From Candidatus Zipacnadia bacterium (GTDB lineage Bacteria > Armatimonadota > Zipacnadia > Zipacnadales > UBA5352), in contig JALGTR010000010.1 in assembly GCA_029821265.1 (NCBI GenBank), positions 1 through 35,077 on the forward strand: a stretch of DNA of 35,077 nucleotides, written 5' to 3'. The position numbers and the translations under genes are program-made. This document shows, piece after piece, positions 2,987-31,420 of the stretch. The stretch's first letter is position 1; every line of letters begins with the position of its first letter. Below the pieces are notes generated by a model, which was not told the origin of the DNA, ran no database searches, and was given only the letters and a program-made list of their open reading frames with translations.

Positions 2987-5293
2987 TCACACACCATCCG
3001 CGATCCAGCGCGCCTTGATCTCCGTCACGGCCGCCTCAGCGTCATCCCGTGTACGATCCAGCCGGTGCCGCAGCGCCGTGACGCGATACGCGCTGTCTGT
3101 CGCCCCAACATCCTCGCCGCCACGGACCGCTATCACCTGCCCGATGCGCATCTGCGGCAGAAGCGGTGTCACGATCTCGATGTGCTCGGGTCGCCGCGAC
3201 AACTGACCGAACAGCTCCAGCGCCAGGCGGTTCACCGCCGCCTGCGACCGGCATGCCTCCAGGGCCTCGACATGCATCTTCCGCCAGCCCACGTAGCGGT
3301 CGCTCGCCGGATCGTACATCGACTCGGGGTCGTAGACCACCGCCGCCACCGGCACTCCTCCGTCGTCCACGCCCGAGACCATCACGTAGTTCGCGTAGTC
3401 CTCCAGCGCCGACAGGCTCAACCGTGGTCGCTCGAGGCGCAGGATCTCGCCTGCGCCGGCAGCATCGCCGGCCTCCGACACCCGCGTGTAAAGCTCCCAG
3501 TCGATCGTGCTCGAGCACGCGCCATCGGCACCGCCGTCGTGCCGCGTCACGTCCTCCGCCGTCCGCAGCGCGCGGCAATGCGGGCAGGCCTTCGTGAACA
3601 CCCCGCTTGCGTCGAAGAAGATCCCCGCTCCGTGGTCGAAGCGCGCCACCTCCGTCAGCAACTCCAGCCACGGTCGCCCCGGCTCCACGCGCCACAGCGG
3701 CCGCTCCGGCTGTCCGGCGCTCAGCTCCGTCCCCGTGTCCTCCAGGTTCTGCTCATCGCGCGAGAGCCCGCAGCGGTCGAGCACCCAGCGGAAGACATCG
3801 ATCACTGGCCAGCCATCGAAGATCGGCGCGCGCCCGTCGCACTTCTCGTCACGCAGCCGGATCATCGGGTCGAGCAGCGTGAGCCTCAGTGACGTCCGGC
3901 CACCCTCCTCGGTCATCGGCGGCGGCTCCACCACGTATCCGGACATGGTGTCGGCCACGCTCGTCGTCGCGTCCGACATCCGCCAGCCCAATCGCACGTT
4001 CACACGGCGGTGCTCCTCGATGCCGCTGTGCTGGCCCAGCTGGTTGTCCACAGCAAGCTCGCACAGCACCGCGCGCTGATCGTCAGGATGATCGCTCTCC
4101 AGCGCCATCACATCCGCGCTCAGCTCCGTCACCGCCCGCTCCCCATTGTCGATGACCTCCGCGTACTGCCCCGACTGCACGGTGTAAAGCTCCGGCGAGA
4201 CCTGGGTGCGAAACTCCAGCTCCTCCCCGGTCTCCGGGTCCGTCCCGAAGCCCTCCTGCACGTATGTGTACGGCTCGATCGTCGCCCGCCATGCGCGCTG
4301 TGTCGCCGTCAGGTCGCTGCGCTGCGCCGTCGTGTCCTCCGCCACCGCCTCGGCCAGCACGTTCCCGTCCCCATCCTTGACCGGCCGACGTTGCAGCTGC
4401 AGCAGCACCTGCCCCGCGCTGTCTGTCGTGTCGTAGCCGGCGTCGATTCCGCAGCTGTCGATCGTCGCGGTCGGCATCTTCACCGCGAACATCGAGAACA
4501 TCCACTGCCCCCCGATGTGCGTCAGCCGCAGTCGCCCCTGCGGGATGCTCAGGCTCCGCCCCGGCCGCTCGTACACCCACAGGTCCTCCGCGAAGCCGTC
4601 CGTTGACATCACAATCCGCTCGCGCAGGCACGCCACCCACAGAAACAGCCGCTGCCCACTGCCGAAGCCCTCGAGCGTCGGCACGCGCACGCTGCGCTCG
4701 GTCTCCGTCACGCGCTCCCAGCCCCCCTCGCCGTTGTGCATCAGAAACACCGGCCCCGCGTAGGGCAGCACCAGGGCCCAGTGCTCGCGTCCGGCGATCC
4801 CGAAGTTGATCTGCGTCCTCGGCGCCGCCGCGGCCCAGTCGTGGTCCGGCGCCGCCTCCGCGCGGTACAGCGAGATGCAGAAGACCGGATTCCTCGGCAG
4901 CTCAAAGCGACTCTCGACGCCCGTGAGCTGGTTCGCACGACCGTCCGACTGATACAGCCGCACCTCGTTGGGCAGCCCGATGCCCTTCAGCGCCTGCCAC
5001 GTGCCTGCAATGGGCTGAAAGTGCCCCAGCCCGATCGACTGTGACAGGTCGAGCAGCGGCCGCGCGATCACCGCGTTCAGCTCCCCGCGTCCCACCACCA
5101 TCGCCGCGCTGTGCCGCGCCGCGGATCCAACCGCGGGCTCCCCCCGCCAGTCAACGAAGTTCGTGCTCGCCTGCCCGGTCGCCAGCAGGTCCGCCACGAG
5201 GTCGGCTCTCGCGAATCCGTCGTACTTCACCTGGTAGCGCTGGCCGGGCTCCAGCAGGTCGACCTCCGCTACGGGCGCAACTCTGCTCGCCAT
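2987..5293 (-). CDS. Baseplate hub-like / tail-tip protein
   Basis: A 768-residue protein; ATG 5293 has GAGGAGG 7 bases upstream. Residues about 1-330 form a beta-rich N-terminal region that I do not recognise. The C-terminal ~330 residues resemble the hub (gpD/gp27-type) proteins at the tip of contractile and long non-contractile tails. They show a VIDVFRWVLDRCGL helix, a segment PGRPWLELLTEVARF, and near the end a conserved-looking block in which AAVNRLALELFGQL precedes LPQMRIGQVIAVRGG and YRVTALRHRLD, the usual pattern of hub lumen domains. An unusual CPHC followed about 25 residues later by another Cys (around residues 605-630) may bind metal. The hub would close the tail tube and carry the adhesins encoded around it. 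Family assignment is by pattern only. Confidence 0.65.
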   Translation of the reverse strand: MASRVAPVAEVDLLEPGQRYQVKYDGFARADLVADLLATGQASTNFVDWRGEPAVGSAARHSAAMVVGRGELNAVIARPLLDLSQSIGLGHFQPIAGTWQALKGIGLPNEVRLYQSDGRANQLTGVESRFELPRNPVFCISLYRAEAAPDHDWAAAAPRTQINFGIAGREHWALVLPYAGPVFLMHNGEGGWERVTETERSVRVPTLEGFGSGQRLFLWVACLRERIVMSTDGFAEDLWVYERPGRSLSIPQGRLRLTHIGGQWMFSMFAVKMPTATIDSCGIDAGYDTTDSAGQVLLQLQRRPVKDGDGNVLAEAVAEDTTAQRSDLTATQRAWRATIEPYTYVQEGFGTDPETGEELEFRTQVSPELYTVQSGQYAEVIDNGERAVTELSADVMALESDHPDDQRAVLCELAVDNQLGQHSGIEEHRRVNVRLGWRMSDATTSVADTMSGYVVEPPPMTEEGGRTSLRLTLLDPMIRLRDEKCDGRAPIFDGWPVIDVFRWVLDRCGLSRDEQNLEDTGTELSAGQPERPLWRVEPGRPWLELLTEVARFDHGAGIFFDASGVFTKACPHCRALRTAEDVTRHDGGADGACSSTIDWELYTRVSEAGDAAGAGEILRLERPRLSLSALEDYANYVMVSGVDDGGVPVAAVVYDPESMYDPASDRYVGWRKMHVEALEACRSQAAVNRLALELFGQLSRRPEHIEIVTPLLPQMRIGQVIAVRGGEDVGATDSAYRVTALRHRLDRTRDDAEAAVTEIKARWIADGV

Positions 5294-5314
5294 CGTCAGC
5301 CTCCTCACAATGCA

Positions 5315-5348
5315 GCGGGCCGGGCGCACTCCGTCGCGCCCGGCCCGC
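5315..5348 (-). terminator. Strong intercistronic hairpin before the hub gene
   Basis: GCGGGCCGGGCGC (5315-5327) and GCGCCCGGCCCGC (5336-5348) form a perfect 13-bp stem with an 8-base loop, 26 bases after the stop of the BNR protein gene. It lacks a following U-run in the minus-strand transcript. It may reduce read-through, block exonucleases or mark a processing site. Confidence 0.5.
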
Positions 5349-5374
5349 CTCGTCCTCTCGGTTCGCGCTCGCGC

Positions 5375-16685: not shown

Positions 16686-17627
16686 CTACGCGCTCAGGCC
16701 CAGGTTCACCGCCAGTACAACCGCGTCATTGTCCTCGAACGCTACCGCAACGCGTGTGGTGATCGTGTAGATGTTCACCCCGCGCAGGATGTCGCGGTCC
16801 TTGTCGATGCGGATCTCCCGGTGGATGCCGAAGACCAGGTTCTCGCGCGGCGTCAGGAAGCCGTAGCTCAGGTTCGAGCCCGAATAACCGTCCACGCCAT
16901 CCTGGTCGGTCGGAATGCTCGGCACCGCGGTCAGCGGCACACCCATGTACGGAGGCGCCGTCGCGCTGGTCATCGCCTCATCGCCGAGCGCGCTGGCGCG
17001 ATCGCTGAACGTGTCGTGCCAGTCCTGCACGGCGCCGGGCGCGAAGTAGTAGCGCAGGTCGCCGTGGTTGCGCTTGTAGCGATTCGGCAGCGCCTTGTAC
17101 ATCGCTGAGAGCGCGCTCTTGTCGAGCGTCGCGCCCTCAAGGTTAACCTTGTTCGCGCTCTCGGCGAGCTTCCGCCAGCCGTCGAGGCCCTGCAGGAAGC
17201 TGTCGCCGGAGGACGTGTCGCCCTGTATCGCGAGCTCCTCGAGGTCGGTCGCGGTCTGCCGCGCCATCACACGCACAACGGTGTTCTCGAGGTCCCCGCG
17301 CTCGATGCTGTCCTCGAGCGCCTGCATCGTCAGCTCGAAGGGTGTGATGATGTCCACCGCCGTGAGCGTCACCTTCGAGAAGCCGGGCTCAGACAGCGTT
17401 GCCGGCGCCACGCCCTCGGTGCGAAGCTGACTGACGCGCCCGCTGGTCGCAATCTTGTCGAGCTCCATGACCGCACTGTGCATCCGCACCACGCGCGCGT
17501 CCTTGAGCATCACCGACTGGTCCACAGACATCTCTACAAACCGGTCGTACTGCCCGGTGTTGAGCAGCCCACCACCGAGCAGATCCGTGGTATCGACGGC
17601 CTTCTGCAGCATCTCTTCCTGGCTCAA
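16686..17627 (-). CDS. Major capsid protein, HK97 fold
   Basis: A 313-residue protein. TTG 17627 is chosen because AGGGAG (17641-17636) lies 8 bases upstream; GTG 17636 overlaps that site. The order of elements fits HK97-fold capsid proteins of the family without a long N-terminal delta domain: an N-arm, a beta E-loop region (VSQLRTEGVAPATLSEPGF, then KVTLTAVD), a long spine helix (QALEDSIERGDLENTVVRVM), P-domain strands (RYYFAPGAVQDWHDTF), and C-terminal strands with PPYMGVPLTAVPSIP and LVFGIHREIRIDKDRDI. The scaffold and protease functions are supplied by the upstream gene. Capsid identity is supported by position between the protease and adaptor genes. Confidence 0.88.
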   Translation of the reverse strand: MSQEEMLQKAVDTTDLLGGGLLNTGQYDRFVEMSVDQSVMLKDARVVRMHSAVMELDKIATSGRVSQLRTEGVAPATLSEPGFSKVTLTAVDIITPFELTMQALEDSIERGDLENTVVRVMARQTATDLEELAIQGDTSSGDSFLQGLDGWRKLAESANKVNLEGATLDKSALSAMYKALPNRYKRNHGDLRYYFAPGAVQDWHDTFSDRASALGDEAMTSATAPPYMGVPLTAVPSIPTDQDGVDGYSGSNLSYGFLTPRENLVFGIHREIRIDKDRDILRGVNIYTITTRVAVAFEDNDAVVLAVNLGLSA

Positions 17628-17705
17628 AACGAACACTCCCTGTGGTACGCCATCTGCACTTCGCGCTCTCCTGCCTCAGTCTCCCTTGTCACCCGCAGCG
17701 CCCCC

Positions 17706-18575
17706 TCACACGACCCCGCTCCACATGTCGCCCCCCGCGCTTCGCTCCTGGCCGGCGATGGCGCGAGATACCCCCGGCGTCGGCTCCTCCGATTCATCGG
17801 CCTCCGCCTCCGCCAATTCGCCATCCTCTGCGCCCTCCGCCATCTTCTCCAGCGCATCATTCAGTCGCGCCAGCGCATCCTCCACGCTCTTGCGCAGCGC
17901 CCGCATCGCCGCCAGCTCCTCGGCCAACTCCTCACCGCCGTCGTCCATCTGCTTCACCTCGCTCTTCGCGAACGGCCACAGACTCCGCGCCGCCTGCACC
18001 GCCGCCCGTCCGACGCGCGCAAGCATCGCGGCCTCGTCCTCACCATCCGGGGCCGGCTCGGTCATGCCCTCCGCGGCCTTCGCCAGCGTCGAAAGATAGG
18101 TGTCCGGGTTCGCGGCCGCGGCGGGTCGGCACACCGCCACGTGATCCAGCTCCACGTCATCGATGAACCGAATCTGACGCCCGGCCTCATCGTCGTGGCG
18201 CCAGAACGCCTTCGTCACGCGCCCCCCAACGCTCAGACCGTATCTCCGCCCCTGTGACACCTTCTCGAACAGCCGCACCGCCTCGGGATTGCTCTCATCG
18301 AGCCGCCCCGCGATCCGAAACTGATCGTTGTCCACCCACGCCTCCTCCACTACGCCCAGCTCCTCCAGCGCTCCCGCGTCGTGCGAAGGCAGCAGGTCCA
18401 GGCCGGTCTGCGTGGCCATCTTCCGGATCGCGTTTGGGGTCATCCGCTCCTTCTGCCTGTCAAGCCGCGTCGATGACGCCACCCCCTCAAATCGCAGCGT
18501 GCCGTCCGCGCCGCGCCAGACCTTCGTCATCGGCAGCGACACGGCGAACTCGCCCATCTGTGCCTCTGCTCCCAT
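17706..18575 (-). CDS. Prohead protease with C-terminal scaffold-like coiled coil
   Basis: A 289-residue protein. Residues ~15-160 match the XkdF/HK97-type prohead protease pattern: GVASSTRLDRQKERMTP, the catalytic His in LLPSHD, the nucleophile Ser in YGLSVGG, and the C-terminal block FIDDVELDHVAVCRPAAA that often closes the domain. After a linker, residues ~205-265 form an Ala/Glu/Lys/Arg-rich helix with heptad character, a likely scaffold region that shapes the prohead and is then digested. Fusion of protease and scaffold in one chain is known in several phages. The gene begins at a TGATG overlap with the portal stop, with GGAGGTGAG ahead of ATG 18575. Confidence 0.85.
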   Translation of the reverse strand: MGAEAQMGEFAVSLPMTKVWRGADGTLRFEGVASSTRLDRQKERMTPNAIRKMATQTGLDLLPSHDAGALEELGVVEEAWVDNDQFRIAGRLDESNPEAVRLFEKVSQGRRYGLSVGGRVTKAFWRHDDEAGRQIRFIDDVELDHVAVCRPAAAANPDTYLSTLAKAAEGMTEPAPDGEDEAAMLARVGRAAVQAARSLWPFAKSEVKQMDDGGEELAEELAAMRALRKSVEDALARLNDALEKMAEGAEDGELAEAEADESEEPTPGVSRAIAGQERSAGGDMWSGVV

Positions 18576-19798
18576 CAGCTCACCTCCGTGCTCGTCGCCC
18601 GCTCGCCGAGCGGCTCGAGGCCCTGCTTCGCCCGAATCTCATCCGGCGTCCAGACGCCGATCTTCGAGTATATCTCGGCGATCTGGGCCTGCTGATGCTC
18701 CTCGCTCAGATCCATCTCCCGGAAGCGGAACTCCCAGCCGTCGATGCCCATCTGCTCCCGTATCATCCGGTTGATCTGATACTCCACGCGCCTCTGTTCA
18801 GGCCGCACCACCTGCTCGCGGAAGGTCTTGTCCTGGTCGCGGCTATTCGCAAGGTTCGCGTTCTCCACGATCGTGATCTTGCTCGGCGGCACCCGATGGA
18901 CCATCAGAATCTCGTCGCGATTGGCCTTCCGGTACTTCAGGAAGCTCGCGTCATCGCCGCCGGTCTCCCCCAGCGGCTCCAGTCGCACCGTTGAAGAGCC
19001 TGGCATCTCAAGCACCAGCGTCCGGTGCGCCTTCGCCTTGACCTCCGTCTCCATGAAACGCCGGATCTGATGCAGGACATCCTTCGGAGGCGGGCCGCCC
19101 TCGAAGATCACCGCCATCCGCGGCATCGCATGGTGTTCGAAGAAGCTCACGTTGTACTCAGCCGCCGCGCGATCGCCGCCCACCGCAGTGATCGCGGGCA
19201 TGATGTCGGGCATCCCGTAGTAGCTCGACTGAGGCGTGTACTTCCGAAAGTGCACGATCTCATTGAGCGTTTCACCATCATCCGCGGACACCCCACCGAG
19301 GTTCCGGAACTCCTGCCTTCTGCCGTCCCGCATCTGCACGAAGCCGCTGCGGTCGCTCTTGACCCTCATCGTCGTCGCGGGCACGTGGTAGAAGCCGTCG
19401 ATCTCCCCCGCGCTGCTGCGCGTGACCTCCAGGTATCCGTTCCCGACGGTCTCCACGTCGGTCCAGATCGCACGCATAATCTCCGTGAAGGTCATCTCCG
19501 GATTGCAGTGGTTGAACAGGTCCTCCAACCTCTGCCTCTCCTCCGGCTGCGCGTCGTCGCGTACGCGCACGAACCGGTATCCCAGCCCGCAGATGTTCAC
19601 GGTCTTCGCATCAACACACGCGCGGTGCGTCGAGTTGATTTCGTAAAGCTGCGCGAGCGCTTCGAGCGAATACGGGGGCTCCTTCACCTCCCCGGCGTCG
19701 TAGGCGTCCTGCCAGCGACTGTCGGGCAGCTGTCGCGTCTGCCCCTTTCCCTCCTCTCCGCCGATGATGTGCGCCTTCATCAGTCTGTCCTCGTCCAT
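18575..19798 (-). CDS. Phage portal protein, PBSX-like family
   Basis: A 407-residue protein starting at ATG 19798 behind GGAGGTGG. It follows the PBSX-type portal pattern: PYSLEALAQLYEINSTHRAC near the start, TDVETVGNGYLEVTRSSAG in the clip/wing region, NEIVHFRKYTPQSSYYGMPD, and the helical stem with ANRDEILMVHRVPPSKI. The dodecameric portal forms the DNA channel at one capsid vertex and binds the terminase, which is encoded immediately upstream. The stop overlaps the protease start. Length is normal for the family and no interruption is seen. Confidence 0.92.
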   Translation of the reverse strand: MDEDRLMKAHIIGGEEGKGQTRQLPDSRWQDAYDAGEVKEPPYSLEALAQLYEINSTHRACVDAKTVNICGLGYRFVRVRDDAQPEERQRLEDLFNHCNPEMTFTEIMRAIWTDVETVGNGYLEVTRSSAGEIDGFYHVPATTMRVKSDRSGFVQMRDGRRQEFRNLGGVSADDGETLNEIVHFRKYTPQSSYYGMPDIMPAITAVGGDRAAAEYNVSFFEHHAMPRMAVIFEGGPPPKDVLHQIRRFMETEVKAKAHRTLVLEMPGSSTVRLEPLGETGGDDASFLKYRKANRDEILMVHRVPPSKITIVENANLANSRDQDKTFREQVVRPEQRRVEYQINRMIREQMGIDGWEFRFREMDLSEEHQQAQIAEIYSKIGVWTPDEIRAKQGLEPLGERATSTEVS

Positions 19799-19821
19799 GG
19801 TGCCACCTCCGGTACACCAAC

Positions 19822-19848
19822 CCGGGACGCCGTCTGCTGGCGCCCCGG
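19822..19848 (-). terminator. Intercistronic hairpin between terminase and portal
   Basis: A 10-bp inverted repeat (19822-19831 with 19839-19848, 7-base loop) has one mismatch at 19827 that becomes a G-U pair in the minus-strand RNA. It stands about 62 bases after the terminase stop and has no U-run. It is similar in style to the other gap hairpins in this module. Confidence 0.4.
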
Positions 19849-19910
19849 ATGATCGCTCTTCCCGTCACCGCCCCCACCTGCGGCCGTCTCGCCGTTCGCC
19901 GCTGCCGCCG

Positions 19911-21398
19911 TCACACCACGTGCGCCCTCATCACACCCCCGCGCCAGCGCTCCACCGCCGAGTTGACTGCCCCCGCTACCGCGTCGGCGACATCCTTCGA
20001 GCCGCCGTGGCGGTGATCCACCTTGTCTCCGCGAATCATCTCCAGCCCCTTACACTCGCGTAGCAGCGGTTCGTACCGATACCACCGCAGGCGGCCGTCG
20101 TAGAGCAGCTCCTTCATCGTCTCGTAGGCCGAGGCCGTTCGATCCACCGACGCGATCTCCACATTCAGGCCCTTACGCCGCAGAATCTGCCTGCTGTCGG
20201 CGCTCTGGAAGCCGTCGAAGGTCACCAGACCGATCGCGAAGCCGCGCGCGGAGATCTGCTCGATCAGCCCGCGGATCTGCGCCAGCTCCAGCTCGCCGTC
20301 GCTCGGGGGCACGATACGCAGCATCAGGTCCACGATCACGGTCGGCCGATCGCCCCCATCCTCGGCCTCGCAGTGCGCCATGGCGATCCCGCAGGCGTCG
20401 CGCTTCAGGCCGAGATCGACATGCACGTAGTACTCTCTCCCCGGCTGCGGCCGGATCTCGTCCGTCAGGTGCCCATGCGCGTCAAAGGCGATCGGCAGCT
20501 CAGCATCGACCGCCCGCTCGAGCACGTCGGTGTCGCGGAAGAATGGCTCGAATGCCTCGGCCGGTCGCGCTGCGAGGTCGCGCAGGGCGCGCGTTGCATT
20601 ACGCTCGAACTCGTCACGATACTCGACCGGCACCTCCAGGCCCTCACACTCGAAGGTCTCCCCGCAGTACGTACCGGCGGGCTTCACCTCCCACGTCGCC
20701 CGCCGTGAGGCGTAGATCTTCGGGTTACTCTCAGCCTCCTGCAGCTTGCGCTCGAGGAAGTCGCCCCGGTGCCGCGGCGATGAGATCATGATCAGCAGGC
20801 CCTGATCGAGGAACCGGCTGCGGATCCGTCGCTGCAGCGCGTTATAGATCTCCTCCGCCGAGTCCCGCCTGCCCCCATCGCTTTCGAGCAGCCAGCTCGC
20901 CTCATCGATCACCGCCCCGAGCACGTTGTAGCCCAGCGGGTAGGTCTCCGCGGAGTTGCCGCAGATCACCGCGATGTCCTTGGGAAAGCGCAGCTCACGG
21001 CTCATCGTCTTCGGCTTGTGCCGCGCGAACCAGGGAGATCGCTCAATCCGCTGCAGGATCTCGCCAAAAACCACCCGGCGCGCCTGCTCGCCATTGGTGG
21101 ACATGTTCATGAAGCAGATCGTGCTGCCTTCGGCGATCCCCAGCGTCCTCTGTGGTGACCTCAGGCACAGCGTCCGGTGAATCTGGTATGTGATCGCGAG
21201 ACTCGCGGTGTATGACTTGCCTGCGCCGATACCCCAGCACAGGGCGGCCTCGTTATAGTCTCCCTCGAAGATCTCTTCGAGCACGTCAATGATCTTCGGA
21301 TATACGTCTCCTCTGAGCCCCAGATACTCCTCGTCCAGCACGAAATCACGCAATCGCGCCGGATCTTCCTCCCATGTTTCGGCGTCCTCGCTCGGCAT
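19911..21398 (-). CDS. Phage terminase large subunit
   Basis: A 495-residue packaging motor. The ATPase part has Walker A WGIGAGKSYT (about residues 55-64) and Walker B LGAVIDEASW (around 165), with a coupling SSPRHRGDF segment. The C-terminal RNase-H-like nuclease has acidic residues in YVHVDLGLKRDACG, VTFDGFQSADS and GGSKDVADAVAGA that fit the metal-binding triad. ATG 21398 is chosen with AAGGTG six bases upstream; GTG 21407 is an alternative. No small terminase gene is recognisable upstream, unlike in most phages. It is the first gene of the module, so the module promoter should lie in the 360-base gap to its right. Confidence 0.93.
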   Translation of the reverse strand: MPSEDAETWEEDPARLRDFVLDEEYLGLRGDVYPKIIDVLEEIFEGDYNEAALCWGIGAGKSYTASLAITYQIHRTLCLRSPQRTLGIAEGSTICFMNMSTNGEQARRVVFGEILQRIERSPWFARHKPKTMSRELRFPKDIAVICGNSAETYPLGYNVLGAVIDEASWLLESDGGRRDSAEEIYNALQRRIRSRFLDQGLLIMISSPRHRGDFLERKLQEAESNPKIYASRRATWEVKPAGTYCGETFECEGLEVPVEYRDEFERNATRALRDLAARPAEAFEPFFRDTDVLERAVDAELPIAFDAHGHLTDEIRPQPGREYYVHVDLGLKRDACGIAMAHCEAEDGGDRPTVIVDLMLRIVPPSDGELELAQIRGLIEQISARGFAIGLVTFDGFQSADSRQILRRKGLNVEIASVDRTASAYETMKELLYDGRLRWYRYEPLLRECKGLEMIRGDKVDHRHGGSKDVADAVAGAVNSAVERWRGGVMRAHVV

Positions 21399-21530
21399 CG
21401 ACCGCACCTTCTCTCTCGGCGTTCACGTCTCGACGTTCCTCGCGGTCGATCTGCTTTCGCTCGATGGCATCTGCCCTCAGTTCATCGGCCCCCGTCGTCG
21501 CTCTCGTTGCCGCCGTCGCTGCCCTTCCCC

Positions 21531-28154: not shown

Positions 28155-28187
28155 AAAGGAAGCGGGGCGCCCGGTGAGGGCGCCCCG
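28155..28187 (-). terminator. Terminator of the CODH-like operon
   Basis: CGGGGCGCCC (28163-28172) and GGGCGCCCCG (28178-28187) form a perfect 10-bp stem with a GGTGA loop, 55 bases after the CODH-like stop. On the transcript strand the following bases are CTTCCTTTG, a partial U-rich tract, so it is a reasonable intrinsic terminator. Confidence 0.7.
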
Positions 28188-28242: not shown

Positions 28243-30114
28243 TCAGATGCCCAACTCGTTACGCTTCTTCTCTATGTGCGTCGCGATATCTTCCGCGACC
28301 TGCACGGGATCCTCCCCGATCGCAACCTTTCCGCCGGTGATCTCCTCGAGGTCCTCGGTCAGAAGCTTCACGGCCTCAGGAGACCCTGTGATCGGCGGCG
28401 TCGGCGACACGTGCGTGTAAAGCCCCAGCGCCAGCGCGCCGAGAGCGTCGATCGTCGCTTTCTGCTCCATGTACTCCGGAGCCGTCACCGCGACCGGAAG
28501 CTGGCTCGGATCCACGCCCAGTGCGCTGGCCACGGCGCCCACCAGCAACGCCAGCCGACCGCAGTCGGTGCAGGTCCCGAAGCTTAGCACCGGCGGCACA
28601 CCGAGGCTCTCGCAGACCGTCCGCAGGCCATCGCCGGCCAGCTTCTGCGCCTCCAGGGAGTTCAGGCCCGCGACCTGCGTCGCAGCGTTCCCGCAGCCTG
28701 CCGAGAGCACGAGGATATCGCGCTTGATCAGCTCCTCGACCACCCTCACGGTCAGGCTGTCCTGTGGGCCGTTCGTGAGCGTGGTGCAGCTGACCATCGC
28801 CACAATGCCCTTGATGTGCCCCGCCTTGATGGCCTCCAGCAGCGGATCGAGCGTCCCGCCGAGCGCGCCGATAACGGCCTCGTTCGAGAACCCGGTGAGG
28901 ATCTCCCGCGTGTGCTCAACCGGGTGCGACTCTTTGTCCCTGCGCTCCTTGAAGTTCTCGATCGCGATGTCGATGATCTGCTGGACCTGCTCCTCGACCC
29001 TCTCCGGATCATATTCGATCCGCTCGTGGGTCCCGGGTACGCCAATCAGCTCGGAGACGGCCACCAGCTTCGTACCGTACCTGTCCGCGATCTCGCCCAG
29101 CGACGGCACCGCGCAGTTCATGTCCATCGCGAACACGTCCACCGCCCCGGTCGCGATTGCATACTCCTCGCACAGCCAGTTCCCGGTCAACCCCACGAAC
29201 ACATCGCTCTCCTCGAGCCGTTGCATCATCTCCTGCCCCGTCTCAATCGAGCCGACGATCCGCAGGCCCTTCGCTCCGGCGTCCTTCGCCGCCTGCTGGA
29301 CCTCCTCCGACTCGGCGGCCTTCACCAGCGCAAAGCCTACGAACGGCTCGTGGCCGTTCGGCAGGATGTTCACATACTCCGGATCCAGAACCCCGAGGTC
29401 AACGTGTGAGGTGTGCGGCTCGGGCGTGCCGAACAACGCGTCCTGGCCCATCTCCAGCGGAACCTGAACGCCGTAGAAGGTCGCGATGCCCATCCGCAGC
29501 GAGGCCTTGGCCAGCGACACGTAATCGCCGTCGATGTTCGTCATCCCGCGCGTCGTCGCGTCCTGCAGTTCATACAGTGCACCGCCCGGGTAGATGCCAA
29601 GCTCGCGCCACAGTTCCTGCCGACTCTCCGGAGCCAGCGCCTGCACCCAGATCGACTCCTCCTCGAAGGGCTGCGCCATCGAATCGAGGATGCCCTGGCC
29701 AACCGCAACCGCGCGCCGGTTGACATCCTCCTCCTCGACACCCAGCACCTCTGCGAGCATGTCCAGCTTCGACTCGTCGGCGATCCCGAACGGCGTCTTC
29801 CCCTCACCCGTCGCGATCAGCGTCTTCGCGACCTCTTTCGCGTGGTGGCTGTACGCCGCCAGGCCCATCTGATTCAGATGCATCAGGTTCCGCATGACCA
29901 TGCCCGCCGCGTCGATCCCGCACACCCCTCGCGGCGCCTTCGGCGTGATCCGACACGGGCCCTGGCTGCACAGCGAGCATCGAAGCCCCTGCTCACAAAA
30001 CGGGCAGCGCTTCCCCTGCGCCTCAAAGCGATCGGCGACATTCGTCGCCTCGTCCTGTACCATGACACGATACTGCTCGTTGACTGACGCGTGTTGGCTG
30101 ACTTTCTTCGGCAT
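28243..30114 (-). CDS. Ni-CODH (CooS)-family protein with altered C- and D-cluster ligands
   Basis: A 623-residue protein of CODH length and order. B-cluster cysteines Cys46, 49, 54 and 65 are present. The D-cluster motif is CPFC (Cys37, Cys40) instead of Cys-x7-Cys, the pattern linked to a [2Fe-2S] D-cluster in Desulfovibrio vulgaris CODH. For the C-cluster, His255, Cys334, Cys443, Cys474, Cys515 and Lys552 match CODH-II His261, Cys333, Cys446, Cys476, Cys526 and Lys563. But the usual ICCTGNE block reads SIETGQE, so the Cys295 position is Glu291, as in hybrid-cluster proteins (Hcp). Cys518 replaces the Asn of CVDN. Upstream are a ferredoxin and an Rrf2 regulator. No cooC or hydrogenase gene is nearby. 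CO oxidation is uncertain; an Hcp-like redox role is possible. The gene is intact. Confidence 0.88.
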   Translation of the reverse strand: MPKKVSQHASVNEQYRVMVQDEATNVADRFEAQGKRCPFCEQGLRCSLCSQGPCRITPKAPRGVCGIDAAGMVMRNLMHLNQMGLAAYSHHAKEVAKTLIATGEGKTPFGIADESKLDMLAEVLGVEEEDVNRRAVAVGQGILDSMAQPFEEESIWVQALAPESRQELWRELGIYPGGALYELQDATTRGMTNIDGDYVSLAKASLRMGIATFYGVQVPLEMGQDALFGTPEPHTSHVDLGVLDPEYVNILPNGHEPFVGFALVKAAESEEVQQAAKDAGAKGLRIVGSIETGQEMMQRLEESDVFVGLTGNWLCEEYAIATGAVDVFAMDMNCAVPSLGEIADRYGTKLVAVSELIGVPGTHERIEYDPERVEEQVQQIIDIAIENFKERRDKESHPVEHTREILTGFSNEAVIGALGGTLDPLLEAIKAGHIKGIVAMVSCTTLTNGPQDSLTVRVVEELIKRDILVLSAGCGNAATQVAGLNSLEAQKLAGDGLRTVCESLGVPPVLSFGTCTDCGRLALLVGAVASALGVDPSQLPVAVTAPEYMEQKATIDALGALALGLYTHVSPTPPITGSPEAVKLLTEDLEEITGGKVAIGEDPVQVAEDIATHIEKKRNELGI

Positions 30115-30166: not shown

Positions 30167-30898
30167 TCAAACAGCCACCGGCGCCTCTTGCTGGCCCTGT
30201 ATCGTGATCACCAGCTCCTCGAACGGGATATCAGCTCCCGATTCGCTCAATGCGCGCCTGACCAGCGCCACCAGTCCGGCGCAGCACGGCACTTCCATCC
30301 GAGCCACTGTCACCCGCCTGATCTCCCGCATTCGGAAGATCTCGACCAGCTTCTCGAAATACGGCGTGACATCGTCGAGCTTCGGGCAGGCGGTGATCAC
30401 CTTCTTGCCGGCCAGCAGCTCGCCATGAAAGCCGCCCAGCGCATACGGCACGCAGTCGGCCGAGATCAGCAGGTCGGCGTCCTCAAGCCACGGCGCATGG
30501 ACCGGCACCAGCGTCAGCTGCACCGGCCAGTTACTTAGCTGCGACGGCTGCGGCCCCGTCGCCGGAGGCTGCCTGGTCGCCTCGCCCGACTCCATCAAGC
30601 GACTGCCCGGACAGCCACCACCACACGCGGTCGCCTGCTGCAGCGTCTCCTGCACCTCAACGTGCGCGGCTACGGCCTCCTCGTCGAACTCCTCGGCCTC
30701 CCGCTCCTCGATGGTGATCGCGCCCCTGGGGCACTCCCCGAGGCAGTTGCCGAGGCCGTCGCACAGCCGATCCTCGATCAGCTTCGCCTTTCCGTCGATG
30801 ATCTGGATGGCGCCCTCTTCGCACGCGGGCACGCACAGCCCGCAGCCGTCGCACTTCTCCTCATCGATCGTCACAATCTTTCTTATTCGTTTTGCCAT
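30167..30898 (-). CDS. Ferredoxin-domain electron carrier for the CODH-like enzyme
   Basis: A 243-residue protein starting at ATG 30898. The N-terminal bacterial-type ferredoxin has a full Cys-x2-Cys-x2-Cys-x3-Cys motif (KCDGCGLCVPAC, Cys16-26). The second motif reads CDGLGNCLGEC, so the second Cys is replaced by Leu and only three cysteines remain. That may give a [3Fe-4S] cluster or need another ligand, such as the CGGGC motif that follows at about residues 93-97. The C-terminal ~130 residues (from NWPVQLTLVPVHAPWLEDAD) have cysteines in SADCVPY, ITACP and VPCCAG; I recognise this layout from anaerobe ferredoxin-like proteins but not a function. It probably carries electrons to or from the enzyme encoded 52 bases downstream, and it follows the Rrf2 gene in one operon. 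Confidence 0.82.
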   Translation of the reverse strand: MAKRIRKIVTIDEEKCDGCGLCVPACEEGAIQIIDGKAKLIEDRLCDGLGNCLGECPRGAITIEEREAEEFDEEAVAAHVEVQETLQQATACGGGCPGSRLMESGEATRQPPATGPQPSQLSNWPVQLTLVPVHAPWLEDADLLISADCVPYALGGFHGELLAGKKVITACPKLDDVTPYFEKLVEIFRMREIRRVTVARMEVPCCAGLVALVRRALSESGADIPFEELVITIQGQQEAPVAV

Positions 30899-30939: not shown

Positions 30940-31377
30940 TCACACCTCGGAACCATCGGCCGGCGCACACCCCGTCGCGCCAACGATGTCCGCCAGCGTC
31001 GTGCTCTTCAGCCCCTGCTCCAGCACGTTCTGCATCCCCAGCCATGTCGGGCGCAATGGGCACGATACCGCCCGATCGCATGCCTCCAGCCCTATCACGC
31101 AGCGGTTCACGTTAATGGGGCCCTGAACCGCTGTAACGACCTCCAGCAGATTGATCTCTCCCGGATCCCGCGCCAGCCTGAATCCGCCGCTCGGGCCGCG
31201 CTTGCTCTCCACGATCCCCCGATCGCGCAGCGACTGCATGATCTTGTGCATAAAGTCCACCGTCGTATCCGCCGCGTCCGCGAGCTCCTCCGCGGTCATT
31301 GCGCTCTCGTCCTCATGCAGCGCCAGCGCTATCAGCGCCCGCAGCCCGTACCCGGTGTTCCGCTTCATGACCTCCAT
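30940..31377 (-). CDS. Rrf2-family transcriptional regulator, probable Fe-S sensor
   Basis: About 145 residues with a winged-helix N-terminus (RNTGYGLRALIALALHE, the recognition helix around TTVDFMHKIMQSLRD and the wing at KRGPSGGFRLA). Three cysteines, in NRCVIGLEACDRAVSC, match the Cys-x(5-7)-Cys-x5-Cys ligand pattern by which NsrR, IscR and relatives hold a [2Fe-2S] or [4Fe-4S] cluster and sense NO, redox state or Fe-S supply. ATG 31377 is very close to the predicted transcription start; ATG 31368 is an alternative with GGAGG only two bases before it. A palindromic operator overlaps its promoter (31386-31402), suggesting self-control of the operon with the ferredoxin and CODH-like genes downstream. 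The signal sensed is not shown. Confidence 0.88.
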   Translation of the reverse strand: MEVMKRNTGYGLRALIALALHEDESAMTAEELADAADTTVDFMHKIMQSLRDRGIVESKRGPSGGFRLARDPGEINLLEVVTAVQGPINVNRCVIGLEACDRAVSCPLRPTWLGMQNVLEQGLKSTTLADIVGATGCAPADGSEV

Positions 31378-31385
31378 GATTATTC

Positions 31386-31402
31386 TGGAGTACAATAGTC
31401 CA
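31386..31402. promoter_or_regulatory. Probable Rrf2 operator overlapping the -10
   Basis: TGGACTATTGTACTCCA, read on the minus strand, is an imperfect 17-base palindrome (TGGA...TCCA with inner TA...TA). It covers the -10 and start region, and resembles sites bound by IscR/NsrR-type Rrf2 proteins. Repression by steric block is expected. The binding protein is inferred to be the adjacent regulator. Confidence 0.6.
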
Positions 31403-31420
31403 ATTTATTGCCCCTGTCAA
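31392..31420 (-). promoter_or_regulatory. Promoter of the rrf2 - ferredoxin - CODH-like operon
   Basis: On the minus strand a perfect -35 TTGACA (31420-31415) is separated by 17 bases from TATTGT (31397-31392). Transcription should begin near 31385, only a few bases ahead of the first in-frame ATG, giving a very short leader. This is the best sigma-70 match in the window. Confidence 0.75.

Follow-up and report, generated by a model that had tools for sequence, protein, structure and literature searches.

In the window, the whole stretch of 35,077 nt analysed here (Candidatus Zipacnadia bacterium, GCA_029821265.1, contig JALGTR010000010.1), a CO dehydrogenase (CODH)-family gene follows those for an Rrf2-family regulator and a ferredoxin on the minus strand, and the balance of the evidence tilts slightly towards a three-gene operon for a ferredoxin-fed hybrid-cluster reductase, which would stand in for Hcp and be switched by the Rrf2 protein. 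By its sequence the enzyme is of the CooS-V type, structural group D-1 of the clade D Ni-CODHs. The kind of enzyme, its fold and its cluster type are already known, and the new part is the operon and genome context; no published account was found of the mutual exclusion of D-1 and Hcp in the order of the window genome, of the grouping of the operon ferredoxin with those preceding Hcp in sister families, or of the dedicated three-Cys Rrf2 protein with its dyad.

The CODH-family reading frame runs from 30114 to 28243 on the minus strand and encodes 623 aa without an internal stop; the named records nearest to its product are from Zipacnadia, Armatimonadetes and candidate division WS1 MAGs. The replacement of the C-cluster ligand Cys295 by Glu, reported in the first-pass annotation, was confirmed. 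No gap is needed to align the block VGSIETGQE with GSIESGQE of CooS-V or with the CCTGNE-bearing block of the CODHs, and the ungapped alignment to 7b7q puts Glu291 (codon 29242..29244, minus strand) at the Cys295 position, which is Glu295 in CooS-V. The other C-cluster ligands (His255, Cys334, Cys443, Cys474 and Cys515, plus Lys552) are in register, as had been stated. Glu291 is invariant in an alignment of 37 sequences and present in 81 of 83 proteins in a larger one, made of the window protein and homologues from 80 genome loci, which excludes a sequencing slip; the remaining two proteins have Cys there, and both are second copies, from a single Methanoperedens-type lineage, that bear C-cluster clade-D marks.

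Three further marks, Glu550, Tyr88 and Cys40, had not been recorded in the first-pass annotation. Glu550 (codon 28465..28467, minus strand), two residues before the catalytic Lys552, is Glu in 83/83 proteins and corresponds to Glu556 of CooS-V and Glu494 of Hcp, the second carboxylate ligand of the hybrid cluster (PMC9311411, PMC6344411). Tyr88 stands at the position of the acid-base residue His93, and Cys37 and Cys40 make up a type III D-cluster (Gly41 to Cys), of the [2Fe-2S] kind. Structural group D-1 of clade D is distinguished by a Glu in place of the first C-cluster Cys, a Tyr where the acid-base His would stand, a type III D-cluster and Glu two residues before Lys (PMC6344411), and every one of these marks is found in the window protein; of the published groups with altered clusters, which the first-pass annotation had mentioned without being able to place the protein among them, the matching one is D-1. 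In the Methanoperedens-type loci L024 and L025 (2458-4413, minus strand) a clade-D relative near the D-1 gene keeps Cys295 and Gly41 and carries the hybrid-cluster-type Glu before Lys (GYHCCCCCEK), and may be an intermediate between the C-cluster and hybrid-cluster types.

The closest solved structure is CooS-V of Carboxydothermus hydrogenoformans (7b7q; 730 bits, E 1.6e-218), the second-best solved match being a true CODH (426 bits). The AlphaFold model built from the 37-sequence alignment (mean pLDDT 93, pTM 0.93) superposes on the CooS-V entries with TM 0.98, an rmsd of 1.3 A and 54% identity, and on C-cluster CODHs with TM about 0.95 and 31-38% identity. A tree that also includes C-cluster CODHs and Hcps puts the window protein and CooS-V in one D-1 clade (support 100), which joins the clade-D C-cluster copies (support 90) far from Hcp; grouping with Hcp was not found in this tree, where Hcp forms a separate clade (support 100). 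Both comparisons, which had been proposed as checks, agree with the earlier suggestion of a CODH scaffold adapted toward hybrid-cluster-like chemistry, a reading which was right, yet already published for CooS-V (PMC9311411). Among the NCBIfam models, TIGR01702 (anaerobic CODH; cut-off 478) gives the protein 798 bits, and the Hcp models TIGR01703 and NF003658 give 51 and 54 bits, below their cut-offs of 361 and 367. Since this CODH equivalog scores the D-1 protein far above its cut-off, such genes are named CO dehydrogenase, in contrast to the lack of CO activity of CooS-V.

The crystal structures of CooS-V (PDB 7B7Q, 7B7T, 7B95, 7B97 and 7B9A) contain a [4Fe-3S-nO] hybrid cluster in which both Glu residues take part (PMC9311411). 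The protein has no Ni and neither oxidises CO nor reduces CO2; its NO reduction is not above background, its hydroxylamine reduction is slow, its redox potentials lie about 300 mV below those of E. coli Hcp, and its authors infer a physiological role different from that of Hcp (PMC9311411). By analogy, the window protein (28243..30114, minus strand) very likely holds a predicted [4Fe-3S-nO] hybrid cluster in place of a Ni C-cluster, and very likely has no CO activity. Whether its substrate would be Hcp-like is about evenly balanced, the main doubt being the weak hydroxylamine activity of CooS-V, which was assayed with methyl viologen as donor rather than a cognate ferredoxin.

The order of the genes on the minus strand is Rrf2 (ATG 31368), ferredoxin (ATG 30898), D-1 CooS (ATG 30114) and a terminator-like hairpin of ten G-C-type pairs (28163..28187; three such hairpins found against 1.3 expected). 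The M14 carboxypeptidase gene downstream was considered as a further member of the operon and judged separate because of this hairpin. The regulator gene (30940..31368, minus strand) encodes a protein with three Cys (CX6CX5C) and was given the start ATG 31368, behind GGAGG, because the upstream TTG falls within the operator. A promoter TTGACA-17-TATTGT lies at 31392..31420 on the minus strand (the region has two promoter-like sites, where 0.4 would be expected), and its -10 box is covered by an operator-like dyad, TTGGACTA-TTG-TACTCCA (31386..31403, minus strand), which is conserved before D-1-linked Rrf2 genes.

The consensus of the dyad before these genes is TGGANTA-N3-TANTCCA, and almost all copies have TTGACA upstream. 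It occurs with 0-1 mismatches in the family of the window genome, is present also in another family of the phylum (L160 and L174), and was found with one mismatch and a weaker -35 box in a Slackia record and as AGGACTAAAATAGTCCT and near variants, with 2-3 mismatches, in three Bacillota loci. The promoters of Hcp-linked Rrf2 genes gave background matches only (3 to 5 mismatches), and a search of the window genome allowing up to 2 mismatches finds the dyad at a single site, the D-1 operon promoter. The D-1-linked Rrf2 proteins, including that of the window, form a clade (support 95) with members from Armatimonadota, Bacillota and Actinomycetota, and the Hcp-linked ones a separate clade (support 99), in a search whose query was the Rrf2 protein of the window itself and which can miss more distant Rrf2 genes. 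The notion that D-1 simply replaced Hcp inside an otherwise unchanged Rrf2-ferredoxin operon was rejected, because the D-1- and Hcp-linked regulators are of different clades and the Hcp-linked promoters are devoid of the dyad.

None of the named Rrf2 models tested (NsrR, IscR and CymR) reached its cut-off, the best score being that of the SUF regulator (81 against 110.65 bits), and the sole model passed was that of the Rrf2 superfamily. The regulator is likely an Fe-S-binding repressor of the D-1 operon; from IscR and NsrR it is inferred that its Cys residues would bind an Fe-S cluster, the loss of which would relieve repression. An Rrf2 gene upstream of cooS is already on record for a different group, clade C of a termite study (PMC3082573).

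The ferredoxin (30167..30898, minus strand; 243 aa) consists of an N-terminal two-[4Fe-4S] domain (Pfam Fer4 domains) and a conserved C-terminal domain, and is likely the electron donor of the D-1 enzyme. Within the family of the window genome, eight genomes (that one included) have both genes, and in all of them the homologue of this ferredoxin stands directly 5' of D-1 CooS; homologues also precede Hcp in the families f4, f5, f6, f9, f10 and f42 of the phylum, one of these Hcps scoring 777 bits on TIGR01703. In the ferredoxin tree an 18-member clade (support 88) unites the seven D-1-linked copies from the family of the window genome and eight Hcp-linked copies from the same order and class; across the tree as a whole, the starred branches require the D-1 label to have changed at least five times, so that the pairing of ferredoxin with D-1 was gained or lost several times. 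Loci from Bacillota, Nitrospirota, Thermoplasmata and Methanoperedens-type genomes also have a ferredoxin of this family next to D-1. Gene pairs of hcp and frdX, the latter encoding a ferredoxin-like protein, have been published (PMC1274295).

The family is not exclusive to hybrid-cluster enzymes, an idea which was rejected since 74 of the 105 copies have neither D-1 nor Hcp beside them; neither enzyme was found within 1.5 kb in the best 30 ferredoxin loci of a Firmicutes-centred sample. In a deltaproteobacterial phylum a ferredoxin of this family lies near Hcp in 7 of the best 30 loci. Between the two genes, in six of these (L275, L279, L285, L286, L289 and L293), there is a reading frame with a zinc ribbon and an HD motif (MKCPGQDxRYW...), which has no NCBIfam match and is possibly part of an Hcp module.

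The D-1 gene is the sole PF03063 gene of the window genome (92.6% complete), which holds no second gene of the CODH/Hcp family and in which acetyl-CoA synthase (ACS), NrfA, haem-copper oxidase and NOR were not found. The absence of cooC and hydrogenase noted in the first-pass annotation holds for the genes adjacent to the operon. Among 41 genomes of the order, D-1 is present in 14, Hcp in 21 and both in none, the D-1 carriers being the families f1 and f2 and the genus g20 of f6. Fisher's test gives p 1e-6, a value which overstates the exclusion because the genomes are related and D-1 is confined to these three lineages, themselves related and represented by incomplete genomes. The exclusion fits a functional replacement, and it is the opposite of the general trend, in which clade D and HCP co-occur most often (PMC13056359). 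Hcp has been reported in 21/64 Zipacnadia MAGs, its function there being called unknown (PMC10290634). In 11 of 27 other genomes, MAGs that are incomplete, no PF03063 gene besides D-1 was found; the view that it is always accessory to another CODH is not borne out by these and the window genome, and the 11 run against the statement that CooS-V-like genes occur only beside other CODHs (PMC9311411).

On these data the following mechanism may be proposed. His255, Glu291, Cys334, Cys443, Cys474, Cys515 and Glu550 are placed, by the sequence, as in the crystallised [4Fe-3S-nO] site, and, as in CooS-V, the enzyme would lack a Ni C-cluster and would not interconvert CO and CO2. The reduced cluster would reduce a small oxidised substrate while rearranging, with electrons passing, as the context suggests, from the operon ferredoxin to the [2Fe-2S] D-cluster and the [4Fe-4S] B-cluster. 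The enzyme may thereby replace Hcp in the order in defence against NO, hydroxylamine or another oxidant, and the Rrf2 repressor, probably with an Fe-S cluster, would bind the dyad that covers the -10 box and be released on cluster loss or nitrosylation.

The homologous ferredoxins before D-1 and Hcp, the exclusion of the two enzymes and the dedicated Rrf2 clade with its operator were counted in favour of this mechanism, together with the CooS-V-like fold and chemistry, the D-1 marks, the clade and the standing of the gene as the only PF03063 member in its genome. It is an even call whether, in the order of the window genome, D-1 took over the physiological place of Hcp, with an orthologous ferredoxin as donor, Hcp excluded, and a repressor and operator of its own. 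The main alternative, to which we give a substantial but lesser probability, is that this CooS-V-type hybrid-cluster enzyme has a role other than that of Hcp, as a low-potential reductase or a redox sensor such as has been suggested for CooS-V and for clade D, the sharing of the donor reflecting a common need and the exclusion being an accident of lineage. The much lower potentials of CooS-V and its slow hydroxylamine reduction (PMC9311411), the separate Rrf2 clades beside D-1 and beside Hcp and the promiscuity of the ferredoxin family speak for such a role and were counted against substitution for Hcp, as was an NO reduction by CooS-V no higher than background; a redox-sensing or auxiliary role has been proposed for clade D (PMC13056359). 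The limited number of lineages and the incomplete genomes behind the exclusion, together with the general co-occurrence of clade D and HCP, also weigh against the substitution. A role apart from Hcp is itself opposed by the orthology of the ferredoxins within the order and by the finding that none of the 35 genomes of the order with either gene holds both, across three separate D-1 lineages.

It is very improbable that the protein is a working Ni-CODH with Glu291 on the unique iron and its CO chemistry retained, as the score on the anaerobic CODH model and the genetic hints of D-1 involvement with CO in Methanosarcina acetivorans (PMC6344411) might suggest: CooS-V, with the same ligands, has neither Ni nor CO activity, the C295E exchange in CODH-II leaves that enzyme inactive and Ni-deficient (PMC9311411), the acid-base His93 is Tyr88, and there is no cooC adjoining the gene and no ACS or second CODH in the genome. 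More improbable still is that Cys315, named in the first-pass annotation as a possible occupant of the Cys295 site, or Cys518 takes the part of Cys295 in a C-cluster, for these extra Cys near the cluster ligands, which co-occur in the window protein and four of its closest relatives, are rare elsewhere in D-1 (Cys in 6/83 and 7/83 proteins, respectively; the former column is Ser, Asn or Thr in most members and Thr in the crystallised CooS-V), whereas Glu291 and Glu550 are near-invariant and the gap-free alignment sets Glu291 on the CooS-V ligand Glu295.

The same contig carries, at 256-21422 of the window, a run of minus-strand phage genes for head, tail and lysis functions, which probably belong to a prophage or to a block of phage origin: terminase-like (19914-21422), portal (18578-19864), head maturation protease (17709-18638), virion structural protein (16689-17675), tail protein (2990-5374) and endolysin/amidase (256-948).

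For proteins of the CooS-V type, whose structure is solved, neither function nor donor is known, and everywhere their annotation reads CO dehydrogenase. The context described here supplies D-1 with a candidate donor, regulator and role, and with a testable prediction; if D-1 does stand in the place of Hcp, the group gains a role that can be tested, together with its cognate donor and regulator. D-1 genes are poor evidence of CO metabolism in genomes of the Armatimonadota type.

Compared with known systems, the window protein shares with CooS-V all cluster ligands, including the equivalents of Glu295 and Glu556, the Tyr at the acid-base His, the Cys of the [2Fe-2S] D-cluster, the fold and the clade, and differs from it in its sequence (54% identity), in its Rrf2-ferredoxin operon and in the extra Cys315 and Cys518; C. 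hydrogenoformans has HCP and several CODHs, whereas the window genome has one PF03063 gene. With Hcp (TIGR01703) it likely has in common the type of Fe/S/O cluster and the ligand set, and a homologous ferredoxin precedes Hcp in sister families, but it belongs to a different clade, is built on a CODH-type scaffold with a D-cluster, and scores far under the Hcp model cut-off. The C-cluster Ni-CODHs (CODH-II, CODH-IV and the D. vulgaris and Thermococcus enzymes) have the same fold (TM about 0.95) and five of their six C-cluster ligands in common with it, and are set apart by the changes Cys295 to Glu and His93 to Tyr, by the Glu two residues before Lys and by an identity of 31-38%. The hcp-frdX pairs (PMC1274295) resemble the operon in gene linkage, a ferredoxin-like gene being joined to a hybrid-cluster enzyme, which here is a D-1 CooS with a regulator of the Rrf2 family and not HcpR.
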